Assembly (NCBI GenBank): GCA_025360645.1
Contig: JANYBT010000124.1
Coordinates: forward strand, 1-37,236
Length of the DNA stretch: 37,236 nt
Direction of reading: 5' to 3'
From: Acidobacteriaceae bacterium
GTDB taxonomy: Bacteria > Acidobacteriota > Terriglobia > Terriglobales > Acidobacteriaceae
A program made the position numbers and the translations under genes. This document shows, in pieces, positions 2,430-32,824 of this stretch. The notes under the pieces are model-generated. The model searched no databases, was not told the DNA's origin, and saw only the letters and a list, made by a program, of their open reading frames with translations. How positions within the stretch are numbered: position 1 is the stretch's first letter; every line of letters begins with the position of its first letter.

Positions 2430-3413
2430 ATGAAGCCAGTCAGCCTGCGTTCGTTCGCCAAAATCAATCTGGGCCTGTGCATTGGACCGGTGCGGCGGGA
2501 TGGATTTCACGAATTGCGCACGGTGTACCAAACCATTGCGCTGCACGATGTGGTGCACATCACGCTGGGGCGGGGCCGGGGGATTGAGTTGCGGTGCTCG
2601 GATCCGCGGGTCCCGCGCGACCAGAGCAACACCTGCTGGCGGATGGCCGAGAAGATGCTGCAAGCCCTCAAGCTGAAAAATAGAGTCGTCATCGAGATTG
2701 AGAAACGGTTGCCGGTGCAAGGTGGGCTGGGTGGAGCGTCAGGCAACGCCGCGGCTACGCTCTTGGGCTTGGAGCGAGCGGCGGGAAAGCAGTTGCGTCC
2801 CGAAGACAGGCTGGCGATTGCGGCTGAGGTGGGGTCGGATGTGCCTTTGTTCTTAATCGGGGGCACGGTGATGGGAGTGGGCAGGGGCGAAGAGGTGTAT
2901 CCGCTGCCGGACTTGCCAGCCATTCCGATGGTCGTGGCGACTCCGGAAGTTGGGGTAGCCACGCCGCATGCGTTTGCGGAGTGGGACCGATGGACGGCGA
3001 AAGAATACGGGGAATTGACGGCGGAGCAGGCATCCGATAGACTTAAAAGGTTCGGCAGCAGAGTGAGTACGCTGTTGAGCGTTGGGTCTACGCTATCCGG
3101 TGCTCCTGCAAGAGGTGGGAGCCGGGTTGGGAGCCTGCTTCTCGACCTTGTCCGTACCGGGATCGAAAACGACTTCGAAAGAGTCGTCTTTCCTGAGTAT
3201 CCCGAATTACGAGACTTGAAACAGGCCTTGCGGCGTGCAGGTTCTATATATGCATCTTTGTCGGGCTCCGGCTCGGCGCTGTATGGCTTATTCCGGACCA
3301 AGGAAGACGCCAAGAACGCGGCAGCCAGAATCGTGAGCAGTGGCACACCGGCGCAAGCCACCGTGACGCTGGGCCGAGGACAGCTGCGCAAGAAGACTTT
3401 TTTGGCCGGCTGA
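2430..3413 (+). CDS. ispE: 4-diphosphocytidyl-2-C-methyl-D-erythritol kinase
   Basis: IspE phosphorylates CDP-methylerythritol at the 2-hydroxyl with ATP, in the non-mevalonate (MEP) pathway to isoprenoids. The GHMP-kinase fold is evident: an N-terminal motif SFAKINLGLCIG with the substrate lysine, the ATP loop GGLGGASGNAAATLLGL (about residues 95-111), and the C-terminal glycine motif SLSGSGSALYGLF. At 327 residues it is somewhat longer than the usual 280-310. The extra length lies between about residues 195 and 245 (APARGGSRVGS and neighbours), before the conserved region NDFERVVFPEYPEL. There is no clear ribosome site. TACAAT at 2413-2418 could be a -10 box, which would make the mRNA nearly leaderless. 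A tRNA gene and prs follow. Confidence 0.96.
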   Translation: MKPVSLRSFAKINLGLCIGPVRRDGFHELRTVYQTIALHDVVHITLGRGRGIELRCSDPRVPRDQSNTCWRMAEKMLQALKLKNRVVIEIEKRLPVQGGLGGASGNAAATLLGLERAAGKQLRPEDRLAIAAEVGSDVPLFLIGGTVMGVGRGEEVYPLPDLPAIPMVVATPEVGVATPHAFAEWDRWTAKEYGELTAEQASDRLKRFGSRVSTLLSVGSTLSGAPARGGSRVGSLLLDLVRTGIENDFERVVFPEYPELRDLKQALRRAGSIYASLSGSGSALYGLFRTKEDAKNAAARIVSSGTPAQATVTLGRGQLRKKTFLAG

Positions 3414-3468
3414 GCAGTCGCTGAGCGGTAGGGGTCAGGGCAGTGTCGCGGAGGTCGGCAGAGTTTAC

Positions 3469-3542
3469 TGGGCCGTCGACTAATGGTAGGTCAAGTGCCT
3501 TTGGAGCACTTTGTCTAGGTTCGAATCCTAGCGGCCCAGCCA
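3469..3542 (+). tRNA. tRNA-Gln (anticodon TTG)
   Basis: The cloverleaf folds completely by eye. The acceptor stem TGGGCCG pairs with CGGCCCA (3532-3538). The D arm is GAC/GTC around a TAATGGTAG loop. The anticodon stem AGTGC/GCACT holds the loop CTTTGGA, giving anticodon TTG. The T arm is CTAGG-TTCGAAT-CCTAG. The discriminator is G and the 3' CCA (3540-3542) is encoded. The U1-A72 end pair is typical of tRNA-Gln. The gene sits between ispE and prs, as in several gamma-proteobacteria. Confidence 0.97.
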
Positions 3543-3652
3543 AAATTTGCTTAGTGGAACAGGAATCAGAGAGTGGGCCGGAAGAAGCTCCCCTGGTTTG
3601 GTTGAAAAGTGCGGCAACTGAGTCGTTGACTCCCGGTTCGAGGTAGCAAACG

Positions 3653-26750: not shown

Positions 26751-27107
26751 CTACTGCACCGCTGCCGCTTCGAAATCTTCCACCACCGCATCCAACTGGG
26801 CCAGCGTCTCGTCCACTGTAAGGGAGTACATCTCACGGCCCAGGCCTTCGCCCGACTCCAAAGCAGATTTCAGATAGTGCCCCGCAATCTCAATCGCCAG
26901 CGGATCGGTGATGGTGAGGCCGGTGCGCTTCTTGTACTCGACCCACGCCGGGTGCGGCAAGGCCACCCACACCGTCCGGCCATCGACCAGGAACTTGATG
27001 TCCACCGCATCGGCATGGCGCGTTGCAATGGCAACAATCAGAGCCTGATACAGGCAATGGACGGCTTTCTTCGTCCAGCGATCGGTGGCGGTAAAGTCTT
27101 TGTACAT
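26751..27107 (-). CDS. Small hypothetical protein
   Basis: A 118-residue soluble, acidic protein that I do not recognise. It starts MYKDFTATDRWTKKAVHCLY and has alternating strand and helix segments: FLVDGRTVWVALPHPAWVEYKK (split by AL) looks like two beta strands, followed by a helical second half (LAIEIAGHYLKSALESGEG and VDETLAQLDAVVEDFEAAAVQ). The start at 27107 is preferred on composition, although GGAG lies only one base before it; the frame stays open to 27185. It follows hisS by 125 bases on the same strand. No catalytic motif is apparent. Confidence 0.65.
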   Translation of the reverse strand: MYKDFTATDRWTKKAVHCLYQALIVAIATRHADAVDIKFLVDGRTVWVALPHPAWVEYKKRTGLTITDPLAIEIAGHYLKSALESGEGLGREMYSLTVDETLAQLDAVVEDFEAAAVQ

Positions 27108-27232
27108 ACTCCAAAAACTATAGCGGAGCGAGTGCCGCGGAGCAAACTGGGACCCAAGCTCCCCGGCCTGTGTGTCGCGAAGCAATTGGGCCGGAAAGTA
27201 ATCTGAGGGCGACTTTCAACAACGCTGCAAAA

Positions 27233-28807
27233 CTACTGAATGCTTTGCGCCAACTCCGCCCGCGGAACCGAGCGCTGTTCGCCGGTGGCCAGGTTCTTTA
27301 CGGCAAAGACGTTGGACTTGGCTTCGTTCTCGCCCAGAATCAGGATGTAGCGCGCTCCCAGCTTGGCAGCAGTTTCAAAAGACTTCTTCAGGCGGAAGGT
27401 TTCGTCGCCCAGTTCGACCACCAGGTCATGGCGGCGAAGTTCGCGGGCCAGGCGCGCGGCTTCGCGATTCATTCCTGCACCCAGCGGCGCCACGTACACA
27501 TCGGGCTTGCGCAAAACCGCTTCGGCCGTTTCCGTCAGCGACATCACCAACCGGTCCTCGCCAATGGCGAAACCAATTCCGGGCGCAGCGGGGCCGCCCA
27601 AAGCTTCCGAGAGGCCGTCATACCGTCCGCCTCCGAGAATGGCATTCTGCGCTCCCAATGCACCGTGGGTGAATTCGAACGCCGTGCGCGTGTAGTAGTC
27701 GAGGCCGCGCACCAGGCGGTTGTTTTGCAAAAAACGGATGTGGACGGAGTCTAGGATTGTTTTAACCTGGGCAAAGTGAATGTGGCACTCTTCGTCCAGA
27801 AAATTGGTGATGGTGGGGAGAGTGTCAATGATCGGCTGGTCTTCGGGCACCTTGCAGTCGAACACACGCAACGGGTTGGTGACGGCGCGGCGTTGGCAGT
27901 CGGCGCACATGGTCGGGGCAACTCCCTGAAGCGCATCTTTAAGGCGTTCCAAGTAGGCCGGACGACACCTTGCGCAGCCCACGGAATTCAGTTCGAGCGT
28001 CCAGCCGGTGATGCCGAGGCGGTCAAGCAGCGTGGCCAGCATCTCGAGAATCTCGGCGTCGCGGGCGGGTGACTCGCTGCCTGCGGTCGCCGGGCCAATG
28101 ACTTCCGCGCCAATTTGATAAAACTGGCGGTAGCGTCCTTTCTGCGGACGCTCGCGGCGAAACTGCGGCCCGATGTAGAAAAATTTGCTCAGGCCCCGGT
28201 CCCACATTTTGTGCTCGATATAGGCACGCACCACTCCGGCCGTATTCTCGGGGCGCAGGGTGAGGGACTGAGGGAAGCTGTCTATCGAAACCATCTCCGT
28301 AATTAAGGGCACCGATTTCAACGCTTCGAAGTTGCTCGGCAACGGTAATGCTGTGACCAATCGAAATTCCGTTGTTCGTTTTAGCTTTTCAGTTGCCAGT
28401 TGGAGCAAGAAAAGAGCTTCGGTCGTAAGCTGGTACGCAAAGACTATAAAGTTCCATTGGCCCTCAAGCTGGATAGACATCGTAGGAAGGGGAGACCGCA
28501 ACTGCGCGGCATCCGGGTCGACCTGGTCGAAAGCCTTAACGCCAGGAAACCTTGTAGTCGCCCACTTCCTGTAGACGGAGTAGTCAGCTGCCCTAGCTCC
28601 GTCCTCCCAGGTGTACATCTCCTTCGAAACGATGTCGGTATCTTCACCCACGCCGCGGGCAAATAGTTCGGTGCTCTCGAAAATGGGAGTGCGGATTTCG
28701 TGGAAGTTGTAGGCGCGGAACACATCGCGCACCGCCGTCTCGACAAAGTTCCACAGCGCCGTTTCGGGCGGCATCAGGTCGCGCGTGCCTCGGATCGCTT
28801 TAATCAT
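27233..28807 (-). CDS. hisS: Histidyl-tRNA synthetase with a large internal insertion
   Basis: HisRS charges tRNA-His. The start at 28807 (MIKAIRGTRDLMPPE) matches the family. Motif 1 region, motif 2 (GPQFRRERPQKGRYRQFYQ), the histidine-binding RGLDYYTRTAFEF and motif 3 (GIGFAIGEDRLVM) are intact, and a C-terminal anticodon-binding domain follows. The protein is 524 residues, against about 415-430 normally. The excess lies at residues 71-179, between KEMYTWEDG and SLTLRPENTAG, which are nearly adjacent in typical HisRS. Removing it gives 415 residues. The inserted part has no stop codon and keeps frame, so the enzyme is probably functional. The gamma-carbonic anhydrase gene ends 16 bases upstream, suggesting cotranscription. 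Confidence 0.94.
   Translation of the reverse strand: MIKAIRGTRDLMPPETALWNFVETAVRDVFRAYNFHEIRTPIFESTELFARGVGEDTDIVSKEMYTWEDGARAADYSVYRKWATTRFPGVKAFDQVDPDAAQLRSPLPTMSIQLEGQWNFIVFAYQLTTEALFLLQLATEKLKRTTEFRLVTALPLPSNFEALKSVPLITEMVSIDSFPQSLTLRPENTAGVVRAYIEHKMWDRGLSKFFYIGPQFRRERPQKGRYRQFYQIGAEVIGPATAGSESPARDAEILEMLATLLDRLGITGWTLELNSVGCARCRPAYLERLKDALQGVAPTMCADCQRRAVTNPLRVFDCKVPEDQPIIDTLPTITNFLDEECHIHFAQVKTILDSVHIRFLQNNRLVRGLDYYTRTAFEFTHGALGAQNAILGGGRYDGLSEALGGPAAPGIGFAIGEDRLVMSLTETAEAVLRKPDVYVAPLGAGMNREAARLARELRRHDLVVELGDETFRLKKSFETAAKLGARYILILGENEAKSNVFAVKNLATGEQRSVPRAELAQSIQ
28271..28597 (-). other. In-frame insertion of about 109 codons within hisS
   Basis: This segment has no counterpart in standard HisRS. 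It encodes a hydrophobic/basic helical-looking stretch (FAYQLTTEALFLLQLATEKL) and is GC-poor: by hand count 116 of 240 bases (48 %) at 28261-28500 are G or C, against over 60 % in the neighbouring hisS sequence. It is too short for a usual intein and lacks intein end residues. Confidence 0.75.
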
Positions 28808-28823
28808 TTGGGATCGTGAGCCT

Positions 28824-29357
28824 TCAGATCGTCTGGCTGCCCATCTCCGCTTCTGCCAAATACGACTCGGTGTAGCCAAGATAATTCCGCGCGTACTGCA
28901 GAATCATCTCCTGATCTTTTTCGTCGAGCTTGCGGCGAAACTTGCCGGGCGACCCCATCCACAGCGAGCCCGGTTCGACAATCGTCTTCTCGGGAATCAG
29001 CGTGCCCGCGGCGATAATGGAACCCGCGCCAATCACCGCGCCATTCAAAATCGTGGAACCCATGCCAATCAGGCAGCGGTCTTCCACCACGCATCCGTGC
29101 AGCGTCACCGAGTGGCCCACTGTGACCCAATCGCCAACCGTAACGCTATACACGCCCTTCATGCCGTGCAATACGCTGCAATCCTGAATGCTAGTGTGCG
29201 AGCCGACCCGAATGGAGTGCACGTCGCCGCGCAAAACCGCGCACATCCAGACGCTGGAGCGCTCGCCCAGCCTGACGTCGCCGATGAGCTGCGCCGAGGC
29301 GTCCACGTAACAGGTGGAGGGGAATTGCGGAGTGATGCCTTTGTAAGACCGGATCAT
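28824..29357 (-). CDS. Gamma-carbonic anhydrase family protein (hexapeptide-repeat)
   Basis: A 177-residue left-handed beta-helix protein of the gamma-CA/YrdA/PaaY family, active as a trimer. The three zinc histidines are H64 (SVLHG), H82 and H87 (GHSVTLHG), with the five-residue spacing between the last two seen in archaeal Cam. R43 and D45 in VLRGDVHSIRVG match Cam's conserved Arg-Asp pair. The acidic loop of true Cam, needed for fast catalysis, is not evident, so high carbonic anhydrase activity is uncertain. The C-terminal helix (DQEMILQYARNYLGY) is typical. It is followed by hisS sixteen bases later on the same strand. Confidence 0.9.
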   Translation of the reverse strand: MIRSYKGITPQFPSTCYVDASAQLIGDVRLGERSSVWMCAVLRGDVHSIRVGSHTSIQDCSVLHGMKGVYSVTVGDWVTVGHSVTLHGCVVEDRCLIGMGSTILNGAVIGAGSIIAAGTLIPEKTIVEPGSLWMGSPGKFRRKLDEKDQEMILQYARNYLGYTESYLAEAEMGSQTI

Positions 29358-29492
29358 GGGTAATGTTTGAAAATATCACGGGCCTCGACGTTCCCGCAGG
29401 GTTTGTCAATCCATCGCAGTTCGATAGTCGCTTTGGATCCACAGGCCGCTTTGGAAATGATACTTGGAAATCTGCGGCGATGGCCAAATCGA

Positions 29493-29508
29493 CGTGATTT
29501 GGGTCACA
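29493..29508. promoter_or_regulatory. CRP/FNR-like palindrome upstream of the TonB receptor gene
   Basis: CGTGA-TTTGGG-TCACA matches nine of the ten specified bases of the E. coli CRP consensus TGTGA-N6-TCACA. It is centred about 105 bases before the receptor start. CRP/FNR-family proteins are widespread, but their use of this exact site in this organism is assumed. Confidence 0.4.
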
Positions 29509-29605
29509 TCGTTCAGTTGCGGCGGAGTGATATATAGAAGGGGTTCTCCTAGGTCTCCCCGGAATCCCCTCCGATTCCAAACTCTTCGGACGAAGGTGGA
29601 TTCCT

Positions 29606-32600
29606 ATGTCTCGCTCGGCAGGGCACAACGGTCTGTTCTCTCTCCGTTTTTGTGGTTGGGTGGCGTTCGCCGCGCTTTTTGCGACGGTCCTTGCGACGGT
29701 CCTGGTCGCGGCGCAAGATGCATCGACCGGTGCGGTCCGCGGGTCGGTCGCCGATGCGGGCGGGAATCGCGTGGCCTGGGCGAGCGTCGTACTGGTCAAC
29801 AGCGCCACTGCCCAGCGCTACACCACGGCGACCGATGACAACGGAAACTTTGCTTTCGACCTGCTGCCGCCCGGCGACTATGCTGCTCGGGCCGAAGCCA
29901 GCCTCATGTCACCGCAGGTCTCGCCGCAATTGCATGTTGACGTCGGCGGCGCCACCCAGCTCGCGTTCAAGCTCGGGGTGGCCGGGACCAAAGAGACGGT
30001 CACGGTATCCGGCGCTCCGCCGCTGGTCGAGACTGTGCCCAGTTCGGTTTCCGCGCTGATTGACGAACGCGCCATCAGCGACCTGCCGCTGAACGGGCGG
30101 CGCTTCACCGATCTCGCCCTCCTCACCCCGGGCGTCACTCAAGACCCGCGCGGCATGACTTCCACCTCCAACGGCGACCTGGCATTCGGCGGCATTCGCG
30201 GCTTCCAGTCGAGCTTTCTGGTGGACGGCGCCGACAACAACAACGGGTTCTTTTCGCAAGCCCGCGGACGCTATCGCGCGCCCTATCAGTTTTCCAACGA
30301 AGTGGTGCAAGAGTTCCGCGTATCGTCGAACGCCTATGGAGTTGAGCTGGGACGGTCGGGCGGCGCAGTGGTGAACGTTGTCACCAAATCCGGCAGCAAT
30401 CATTGGCATGGCACGGCGTTCTACTATCTGCGGGACCGGGCGCTGAACGCGACTCCGGCGTATTTGACCTTCAAGCCGAAAGACCGGCAGCACCAGTTCG
30501 GGTTCACCGTCGGTGGGCCGATCCAGCGCAACAAGACCTTCTTCTTCGCCGGATTCGACCAGCACATCTTCCACGTGCCCACGGTGGTGCAATTCCTGAA
30601 TGGCAGTACGGTGCTAGTGCCGCTGAAGGGGCCGGAGCCGCTGTCTCACGGAGACTACGAAGACAGCGACAAGGCGCTGGTGTTTGGCGCTGCGGCGCAA
30701 CTCAACACCATGGCCGGCCAGTACCAGTCGGCATTACTGGGGAATGCGGGGTTTCTGAAAATCGATACTGTTCTCAGCCAGCACAACCATCTCTCGGCGC
30801 GGCTCAGCACCTCGCAGCACCACGGGCAGAACAACGTGTTCTTCGACCCATCGAGCCCCATCACCGCCTACACCCAATCGGGCAACGGGGAAGAGAGCGT
30901 GGCCACCGAGAGCGCCGCGCTTTCCCTGACTAGCGGGATCACACCGCGGCTGATCAGTCATTTGCGGGTACAGTTTTCTCGCGACCTGCAGGAATCGAGT
31001 GCGAACTCCAGCGATCCGCGCACCCGCATCACCAGGGTGTTAGACGGATTCGGTCGATCGTCCATCCTGCCCCGCCGAACCCGCGAACACCGCCTGCATC
31101 TGGCGGAAACGTTCAGTCTCGAAGGCAGCCGCCACGCCTGGAAATTTGGCGGAGACGCGCTCTTGACCTGGACCTCCAACTTCTTTCCGTCGCTATTCGG
31201 CGGGGAATATATTTTCGACAACATTCGGGTCAACCCGTTCACCTTCGAGCCACAGCTGGCGGGGATGAAGACTACGCCGCTGCGCGCCTATGCCCACCAG
31301 GTGCCGCGTTATTACATACAGAATTTCGGATCGGCGGGGTCGAATCCGGATACCAACGAGTACTCGGCTTTTCTGCAGGACACGGTGCGGGTGACCAATC
31401 GCCTCGCGCTGAGCCTGGGGGTGCGGTACGACCTGCAAACCTTCTCCACCAAGGGGCTGGTGTCGAATCCCCTGTGGCCAGCGTCAGGGAAAGTCCCGTT
31501 CGATGACAATAACTTCGCCCCGCGTGTTGGTCTGGCCTATTCCCTAGGCCACGTGCGGCCGTTGGTGATTCGCGCCGGATATGGCTGGTTCTACAGTCGG
31601 GTTCCGCAGATCTACACCTCCGCCGTGGCCACCAAGAACGGGATGGCGGCAACTCACCTGCTACTCAAGAATGCAGATTTTTACGACCACCAGATCTTCC
31701 CCACCTATCCCACGCCCATGGTGAGTTGTGCGATGAAGGCGGCGTTCTGCGCAGCGCCCCCGGATTTAGCCAGCCACTCGTCGACCGAGATTTCTGCATT
31801 TTCGCCGGACTTCCGCACTCCCAAGGTTCATCAAGCGAGCCTGCACCTGGAGCGTGAGTTTGCCGACCACTTTGCATTGGGCGCATCTTATCTCTACGTG
31901 CACGGACAAAACCTGATCCGTTCCCGCGATGTGAACCTGCCTAAGCCAGTGAACTACTCCTACCCGGTCTATGACGACTCGGGCGTCAATTTGCTGGGGT
32001 ATTACGATGTCGCGTCGTTTTCGACGTGGCAGATGTCGCGCTCGCTGACTTGTCCGTATCCGCCGTGCATCAACCCGCTGGCGCGGCCCATCCCGCAACT
32101 GGCTTCCATCAACCAGTTCGACAGCGCGTCGTCGAGCGTGTACCACGCCATGACCGTGTCGCTGCGGCGGCGCATGACCAACGGTTTGTACTTCCGGCTG
32201 GCCTACACCTGGGCGCACGCCATCGATGATGTGCAGGATGCCTTGGTGGCTGGACGTCCCGCAGTGGTACAAAACTCCTACGCCACTTCTTCCGAACGAG
32301 GCTCGAGCGTCACCGACCAGCGGCATCGCCTGGTATTTTCGTGGATTGGAGAGCCGCAGCCTTTCAACGGGCAGCATCCTCTGTTAGCCAAAGCCTTTAA
32401 TGACTGGAAGTTAGCTGGGGTCATGACCATAGGCAGCGGGCGCCCGGTGACCGCACAAATCATCGGCGATGCCAACGGGGACGACAATTCCAGCAACGAC
32501 CGGCTCCCGGGCGTGGGAAGGAATTCCTCGGTGGGTCCCGACTACTTCACTGCCGACGTGCGCACCACGCGTAAGTTGTACATAGGAAAGCGGTTGAAGC

Positions 32601-32824
32601 TGGATCTGATGGTCGAGGTGTTCAATTTATTCAACCATACCAACCAGCGCCTACTCACCACCGACGATTTTTTTGGCGGGCTGGCCGCGCAATTCATTCC
32701 CTACTCGACCAAAGCAGGGTCGAAAGTGTATCCGGCGTACTATCAAAAGTCGACGGGATACCTGAAACCTTCCAGCGCGTATGCGCCGCGGCAGCTTCAG
32801 TTGGCGCTGAAATTCATGTTCTAG
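29606..32824 (+). CDS. TonB-dependent receptor with carboxypeptidase regulatory-like domain (Oar-like)
   Basis: A 1072-residue outer membrane receptor. A signal peptide (about 1-36, ending VLVAAQ) is followed by a carboxypeptidase-regulatory-like beta-sandwich (about 40-125: GAVRGSVADAGGNRV...TTATDDNGNFAFDLLPPGDY). The plug domain follows (about 135-270: LPLNGRRFTDLALLTPGV, FLVDGADNNNGFF, VVNVVTKSGSNHWHG), then a long beta-barrel ending in a terminal phenylalanine (LALKFMF). Proteins of this kind are strongly expanded in Acidobacteria and are thought to import large glycans, peptides or siderophores. The ligand is unknown; no partner genes adjoin. AAGGTGG lies ten bases upstream of the ATG. 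Confidence 0.95.
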   Translation: MSRSAGHNGLFSLRFCGWVAFAALFATVLATVLVAAQDASTGAVRGSVADAGGNRVAWASVVLVNSATAQRYTTATDDNGNFAFDLLPPGDYAARAEASLMSPQVSPQLHVDVGGATQLAFKLGVAGTKETVTVSGAPPLVETVPSSVSALIDERAISDLPLNGRRFTDLALLTPGVTQDPRGMTSTSNGDLAFGGIRGFQSSFLVDGADNNNGFFSQARGRYRAPYQFSNEVVQEFRVSSNAYGVELGRSGGAVVNVVTKSGSNHWHGTAFYYLRDRALNATPAYLTFKPKDRQHQFGFTVGGPIQRNKTFFFAGFDQHIFHVPTVVQFLNGSTVLVPLKGPEPLSHGDYEDSDKALVFGAAAQLNTMAGQYQSALLGNAGFLKIDTVLSQHNHLSARLSTSQHHGQNNVFFDPSSPITAYTQSGNGEESVATESAALSLTSGITPRLISHLRVQFSRDLQESSANSSDPRTRITRVLDGFGRSSILPRRTREHRLHLAETFSLEGSRHAWKFGGDALLTWTSNFFPSLFGGEYIFDNIRVNPFTFEPQLAGMKTTPLRAYAHQVPRYYIQNFGSAGSNPDTNEYSAFLQDTVRVTNRLALSLGVRYDLQTFSTKGLVSNPLWPASGKVPFDDNNFAPRVGLAYSLGHVRPLVIRAGYGWFYSRVPQIYTSAVATKNGMAATHLLLKNADFYDHQIFPTYPTPMVSCAMKAAFCAAPPDLASHSSTEISAFSPDFRTPKVHQASLHLEREFADHFALGASYLYVHGQNLIRSRDVNLPKPVNYSYPVYDDSGVNLLGYYDVASFSTWQMSRSLTCPYPPCINPLARPIPQLASINQFDSASSSVYHAMTVSLRRRMTNGLYFRLAYTWAHAIDDVQDALVAGRPAVVQNSYATSSERGSSVTDQRHRLVFSWIGEPQPFNGQHPLLAKAFNDWKLAGVMTIGSGRPVTAQIIGDANGDDNSSNDRLPGVGRNSSVGPDYFTADVRTTRKLYIGKRLKLDLMVEVFNLFNHTNQRLLTTDDFFGGLAAQFIPYSTKAGSKVYPAYYQKSTGYLKPSSAYAPRQLQLALKFMF

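Follow-up and report, generated by a model that had tools for sequence, protein, structure and literature searches.

Results

The hisS locus

The window, by which we mean the whole analysed stretch of 37,236 nucleotides, carries a histidyl-tRNA synthetase (HisRS) gene, hisS, which is the sole copy in the 3.8 Mb genome (Table 1). In its product the segments KEMYTWEDG and QSLTLRPENTAG are separated by 109 residues (110 if a Q that is also present in the short form is included). The original prediction of an extra in-frame segment was confirmed; its reading frame is unbroken from end to end. The segment takes the place of the turn of about 9–10 residues found in relatives (RGRAESDKG-like), and is not added on top of it; once it is removed, HisRS has 414–415 aa, in line with the predicted normal length of about 415. 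The count of 116 G+C in the 240 nucleotides at 28261–28500 was reproduced on recounting, and over the entire insert G+C amounts to 51.5% and GC3 to 60%, as compared to 60.5% and 73% in the remainder of the gene.

In the enzyme that surrounds the insert, all class II motifs are preserved. Its TIGR00442 score lies above the cut-off of 287 bits, HisRS motif 2 (FRRERPQKGRYRQF) and the His-binding LRPENTAG and RGLDYYT segments are intact, the core columns are invariant in an alignment of 41 sequences, and in comparison with PDB structures the core fold matches the solved HisRS 1adj/4rdx (Z 28). The hexapeptide-repeat protein gene is so close to hisS that the two are possibly co-transcribed; an outer membrane barrel protein gene adjoins this pair.

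Table 1. Features of the window; positions are counted from its first nucleotide
Feature	Position	Strand	Evidence or remark
hisS, histidyl-tRNA synthetase	27233..28807	minus	ORF from ATG, 524 aa; TIGR00442, 449 bits
109-residue domain inside hisS (HisRS residues 71-179)	28271..28597	minus	relatives and structure prediction
Codons of SKEMYTWEDG, flanking the insert on its 5' side in gene order	28598..28627	minus	conserved among relatives; edge of the exchanged segment
Codons of QSLTLRPENTAGV, flanking the insert on its 3' side in gene order	28232..28270	minus	conserved among relatives; edge of the exchanged segment
Hexapeptide-repeat protein gene	28824-29357	minus	directly upstream of hisS, 16 bases away
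CarboxypepD_reg and TonB-like outer membrane barrel protein gene	29606-32824	plus	PF13620, PF25183
tRNA-Gln gene, anticodon TTG	3469-3542	plus	

Distribution of the domain

A profile of the large inserts, searched against the genomes of the family to which the window genome belongs (Acidobacteriaceae), detected a homologous domain of about 100–130 residues in 34 of 398 genomes (approx. 9%) and in 14 of 79 genera, always at precisely this hairpin tip and inside a HisRS reading frame. The remaining genomes possess in most cases a turn of about 10 residues, and in a few a short unrelated insert. Insert-bearing hisS genes are also located on long contigs (4.67 Mb in G383 and 2.6 Mb in G314) and in the cultured Terracidiphilus gabretensis S55 and Granulicella sp. 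dw_53. Because homologues occupy the same codon position, including those on long contigs and in cultured strains, the insert is neither an assembly artefact, as had been considered, nor a chance feature.

The same profile, run against 396 genomes from across the phylum, retrieved only the window genome and two weak chance matches, which were rejected as homologues (one lay in an RpoD-like sigma factor, the other in an unrelated frame). Most bacterial-type HisRS outside the family in our phylum sample align end to end with an insert-free query, and our searches did not find the domain outside HisRS or outside the family. The insert is thus not private to the window genome, nor is it a trait of the phylum; its presence in all Acidobacteriota HisRS, raised originally, does not hold, given its frequency within the family and its absence from every genome sampled outside.

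We then read the tip, as the segment between two anchors, in 106 distinct hisS genes (80 HisRS loci from Terriglobia obtained in a collection search, supplemented by loci from genomes of the same family). Three states were observed: the short turn in 70 genes, 27–52 residues in seven, and a large insert of about 115–143 residues in 29. It should be noted that this sample is biased towards bearers, since the query itself had the insert, and that the family-wide profile count is less so. The expectation that the hairpin tip tolerates insertions was borne out, several tip lengths being found with an intact core. Two different hisS genes (L056 and L073) occur in one MAG (DAHXNK010000015.1, DAHXNK010000060.1), probably a mixed bin, and genome G343 has two insert-bearing pieces (C281:3153-3515 and C11:21-314), one of them at a contig end, which represent either a mixed bin or two alleles.

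All 29 large inserts could be aligned over their full length. Their median pairwise identity is only 23%, but one Trp of the first helix is invariant, and both the central strand and an L-[VI]-x-P-like strand are conserved; since they all align, the domain probably arose once. Most of the short inserts are unrelated to one another (L034, L094, L103, L010 and L038, 27–52 residues between anchors), some are of low complexity, their GC3 is often below that of the flanks, and none could be clearly recognised as a remainder of the large domain. L033 and L044, whose cores are not nearest neighbours, share a module of about 42 residues between KEMYTW and TLRPE, possibly a second exchanged module.

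Predicted fold and catalytic motif

That the insert might form a separate domain agrees with structure prediction, which yielded a compact fold both for the insert alone and within the full enzyme. AlphaFold2, run on the insert alignment, gave a model with pLDDT 82, pTM 0.75 and the order H-E-E-H-E-H-E (predicted elements H2-19, E42-47, E50-57, H62-74 and E79-85), and in the full-enzyme model the same elements appear at residues 71-172 with block means of 83–94. The best structural match to the predicted insert was EndoMS (Z 9.3, 2.5 Å, 95 of 117 residues), followed by NucS (Z 7.9), XisH (6.9), VC1899 (6.6), Can2 (6.4) and Rpb5 (6.0), all of which we take to be PD-(D/E)XK-type folds; the alpha-beta-beta-alpha-beta core topology of this fold is present in the model. 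The order of elements is that of the C-terminal nuclease domain of EndoMS/NucS (PF01939; 5gkj, 2vld), namely helix, strand pair with the D..E-x-K region, helix and strand. However, structural alignments show an identity of just 9–12%, the insert is devoid of the N-terminal DNA-binding domain, and the catalytic E-x-K is absent in nearly all members of the insert family.

Foldseek by itself gave no significant E-value. Independent signals at the level of sequence agree with this fold, but weakly. Among PDB sequences NucS was one of five matches to the insert profile (E 0.8). The best member, the insert of L089, aligned in register with Pfam NucS_C (PF01939) at 12.4 bits (E 0.16), below the curated cut-off of 24 bits, and the window insert did not match this family. 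The insert of L027 matched PADLOC CARF-PDDEXK over the motif region (E 0.004). With hhalign, insert subgroups matched NucS-like proteins of the same bacterial family (P 0.0003–0.003), whereas the whole set stayed below significance and the subgroup to which the window insert belongs gave nothing. The profile–profile search proposed originally produced a weak NucS-like signal for some subgroups, but none for that of the window.

In the window insert V-F-A stands at the E-x-K position, and in other members mostly x-F-R or x-F-A; E-L-K is kept only in L005 (VELK) and E-x-R in L027 (VEIR) and L121 (IEFR). The D...E-x-K site of an active PD-(D/E)XK nuclease is lacking in the window, and no copy has a clearly complete one; the L005 insert (3214-3579) may be the least degenerate member. 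Together, these data strongly suggest that the insert has a PD-(D/E)XK (restriction-endonuclease-like) fold with a shape related to the EndoMS/NucS nuclease domain, and that the canonical catalytic motif has been lost in nearly all members. The fold assignment is good, though predicted, and fold similarity alone is no proof of nuclease ancestry. Considering the structural matches, the weak sequence signals and the loss of E-x-K, the domain is probably nuclease-derived and, in the window genome, probably not a nuclease.

Several other identities were rejected. Inteins are recognised by a Hint domain with an N-terminal Cys/Ser and a C-terminal His-Asn; the insert begins with Ala-Arg and ends with Phe-Pro, and the Pfam search of it gave no match, be it to Hint or to any intein or homing-endonuclease family. 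A group I or II intron was dismissed, as the frame is open and no Rfam match was found in 27000-29600 up to E 0.1, and so was DNA repeated or mobile within the genome, as the insert is found there once. There were no matches in the sampled plasmids (window insert as query) or in the sampled phages and viral contigs (L003 insert as query); PHROGs gave matches at chance level only and a viral structure library nothing significant. In searches of the open-licence literature, we found no HisRS described with an insert of this kind.

Evolution independent of the enzyme core

Bearers of the domain are spread over the HisRS tree in a nearly random manner: 28 changes among the three tip states are needed on the core tree, as compared to a mean of 32 with shuffled labels. 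Tip states differ between cores that are 94–96% identical (L022/L064, L012/L053 and L003/L015), and cores with 89–91% identity carry inserts that are just 27–38% identical (L008/L009 and L018/L113). L003 and L090 share 72% identity in their inserts and 71% in their cores, while for L090 and L091 the respective values are 62% and 94%. Approximately unbiased (AU) tests on the insert data reject the Granulicella group of the core tree (p 3.3e-8), the core clade L008/L009/L019/L115 (p 2.9e-23) and core clade A (p 0.03). Junction DNA is conserved on both sides right up to the tip; therefore, homology for allelic replacement is available.

The low G+C first noticed in the window reflects a general pattern. 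Mean GC3 is 55 in the large inserts and 75 in the core, and insert GC3 is below that of both 60-codon flanks in 29 of 29 cases (p 4e-9). A foreign origin is not the sole possible cause: GC-biased gene conversion, if weaker in a segment that is seldom shared, could lower GC3 as well. The evidence of mobility and composition is firm, and shows that gain, loss and replacement of the domain proceeded far faster than change in the remaining hisS. Accordingly, of the origins initially offered, a lineage-specific domain is right in so far as the domain is limited to one family, but its distribution ignores the lineages within that family; a captured gene fragment and a recent insertion each fit in part, in view of the foreign composition and of the differences in presence among close relatives.

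Insert dN/dS could be measured in four pairs. In the others synonymous sites are saturated, and this also applies to the subgroup that the window insert forms with those of L083 and L004 at about 40% identity. In two of the four the insert is under strong constraint, with dN/dS as low as in the core (0.11 for L003/L090 and 0.10 for L012/L036); the value of 0.5 for both L090/L091 and L090/L117 is possibly due to exchange within the insert. Co-change with tRNA-His was rejected: among 16 genomes the acceptor stem and G-1 are identical in bearers and non-bearers (with the exception of G012, a poorly aligned non-bearer); hence no altered tRNA identity goes with the domain.

Discussion

On balance, we slightly favour the explanation that the insert is an accessory domain with no catalytic role, which recombination exchanges between hisS genes. 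Homologous recombination via the conserved codons that flank the tip would swap alternative tip alleles (the short turn, small unrelated inserts and the large domain), with the aminoacylation core and tRNA-His left unchanged. The large domain would be retained for a noncatalytic job as a surface module beside the active site; HisRS anatomy suggests a position near the active-site entrance, since the module adjoins the His-binding LRPE strand. It might bind a nucleic acid or a protein partner, or alter a surface attacked by a HisRS-targeting agent, and selection favouring variety at the tip would lead to the scattered distribution. No excess of positive charge that would suggest RNA binding was seen, the mean net charge of the inserts being -2.4. 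A point against this exchange model is that the short inserts would equally be expected in a loop that is no more than tolerant.

We advance more tentatively, and with rather more doubt than conviction, a broader version: the HisRS tip may be a site of recombination-driven diversity. Its alternative modules, among which a dead nuclease-fold domain predominates, would pass from species to species because variety is selected for, much as it is in surface antigens and immune genes; or else they would descend from a homing nuclease inserted in frame without intein or intron.

The main rival of the exchange model, which we regard as unlikely, is such a decayed homing element: a small PD-(D/E)XK homing nuclease would have entered this harmless tip with neither intron nor intein, spread through cleavage of hisS genes that lacked it, and now persist mostly as inactive copies in a cycle of gain, decay and loss. 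The predicted nuclease fold, the single site within one conserved essential gene, the patchy spread in conflict with the core tree, the foreign base composition and the E-x-K/R kept by L005, L121 and L027 are all in keeping with it. However, no copy retains a clearly complete catalytic site, domains already devoid of it are common to distant cores with dN/dS of about 0.1, and the unrelated short inserts at the same tip are left unexplained.

Somewhat less likely still is a tolerated passenger, whereby the tip would accept nearly any folded or flexible filler and inserts would come and go by chance, without benefit. This would account for tips of about 14, 27, 42–52 and 115–143 residues, all with an intact core, and for low-complexity inserts that appear useless (e.g. 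that of L103), but not for a large domain that retains its fold, its invariant Trp and a dN/dS of about 0.1 in two pairs; decay would also be expected, yet the short inserts contain no clear remnant of the large domain. An old vertical domain, lost many times and with uneven rates causing the tree conflict, is improbable: some groups of bearers hold together in the core tree and have one insert type (L090/L091/L117 and L039/L118), and the alignable inserts point to a single origin, but it requires many independent losses, the AU tests reject core clades, insert GC3 differs from that of the gene in all cases, and the inserts of the distant L003 and L090 resemble each other more than those of the close L090 and L091.

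Returning to the exchange model, insertion domains are found in several aminoacyl-tRNA synthetases, for example in HisRS after motif 2 and in GlyRS between class II motifs. The present domain resembles them as an addition at a loop of a class II core that itself remains intact; to our knowledge, they are stable within large lineages, whereas the tip domain varies between close relatives and lies elsewhere in the core, before the LRPE segment. Rickettsia palindromic elements, inteins and homing endonucleases are examples of mobile DNA read in frame within essential genes, as the HisRS insert appears to be. Unlike them, it is present in single copy and has no match to intein or homing-endonuclease Pfam families or to intron RNA, and unlike inteins it is a folded domain predicted to remain in the protein. 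The lineage-specific insertion domains of RNA polymerase (BEAN, HABAS; PMC11515920) are likewise homologous accessory domains in loops of an essential information-processing enzyme; these are reported to follow the tree of life, whereas the HisRS tip domain does not.

The insert of the window is no private insertion; it represents one of the alleles of a domain that is rapidly exchanged in an essential enzyme. Insertion domains of synthetases are normally stable marks of lineages; here, a module in the sole and essential HisRS is turned over within a short evolutionary time and moves from lineage to lineage separately from the remaining gene. Natural pairs of enzymes whose cores are almost identical, one having the domain and the other lacking it, provide a test of how an inserted domain affects a synthetase, and the system is also a test case for in-frame homing without splicing. 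A nuclease-shaped, swappable piece is unexpected in so conserved an enzyme, and if our reading is true, in some soil Acidobacteria an essential enzyme of translation would be a site of ongoing conflict or exchange.
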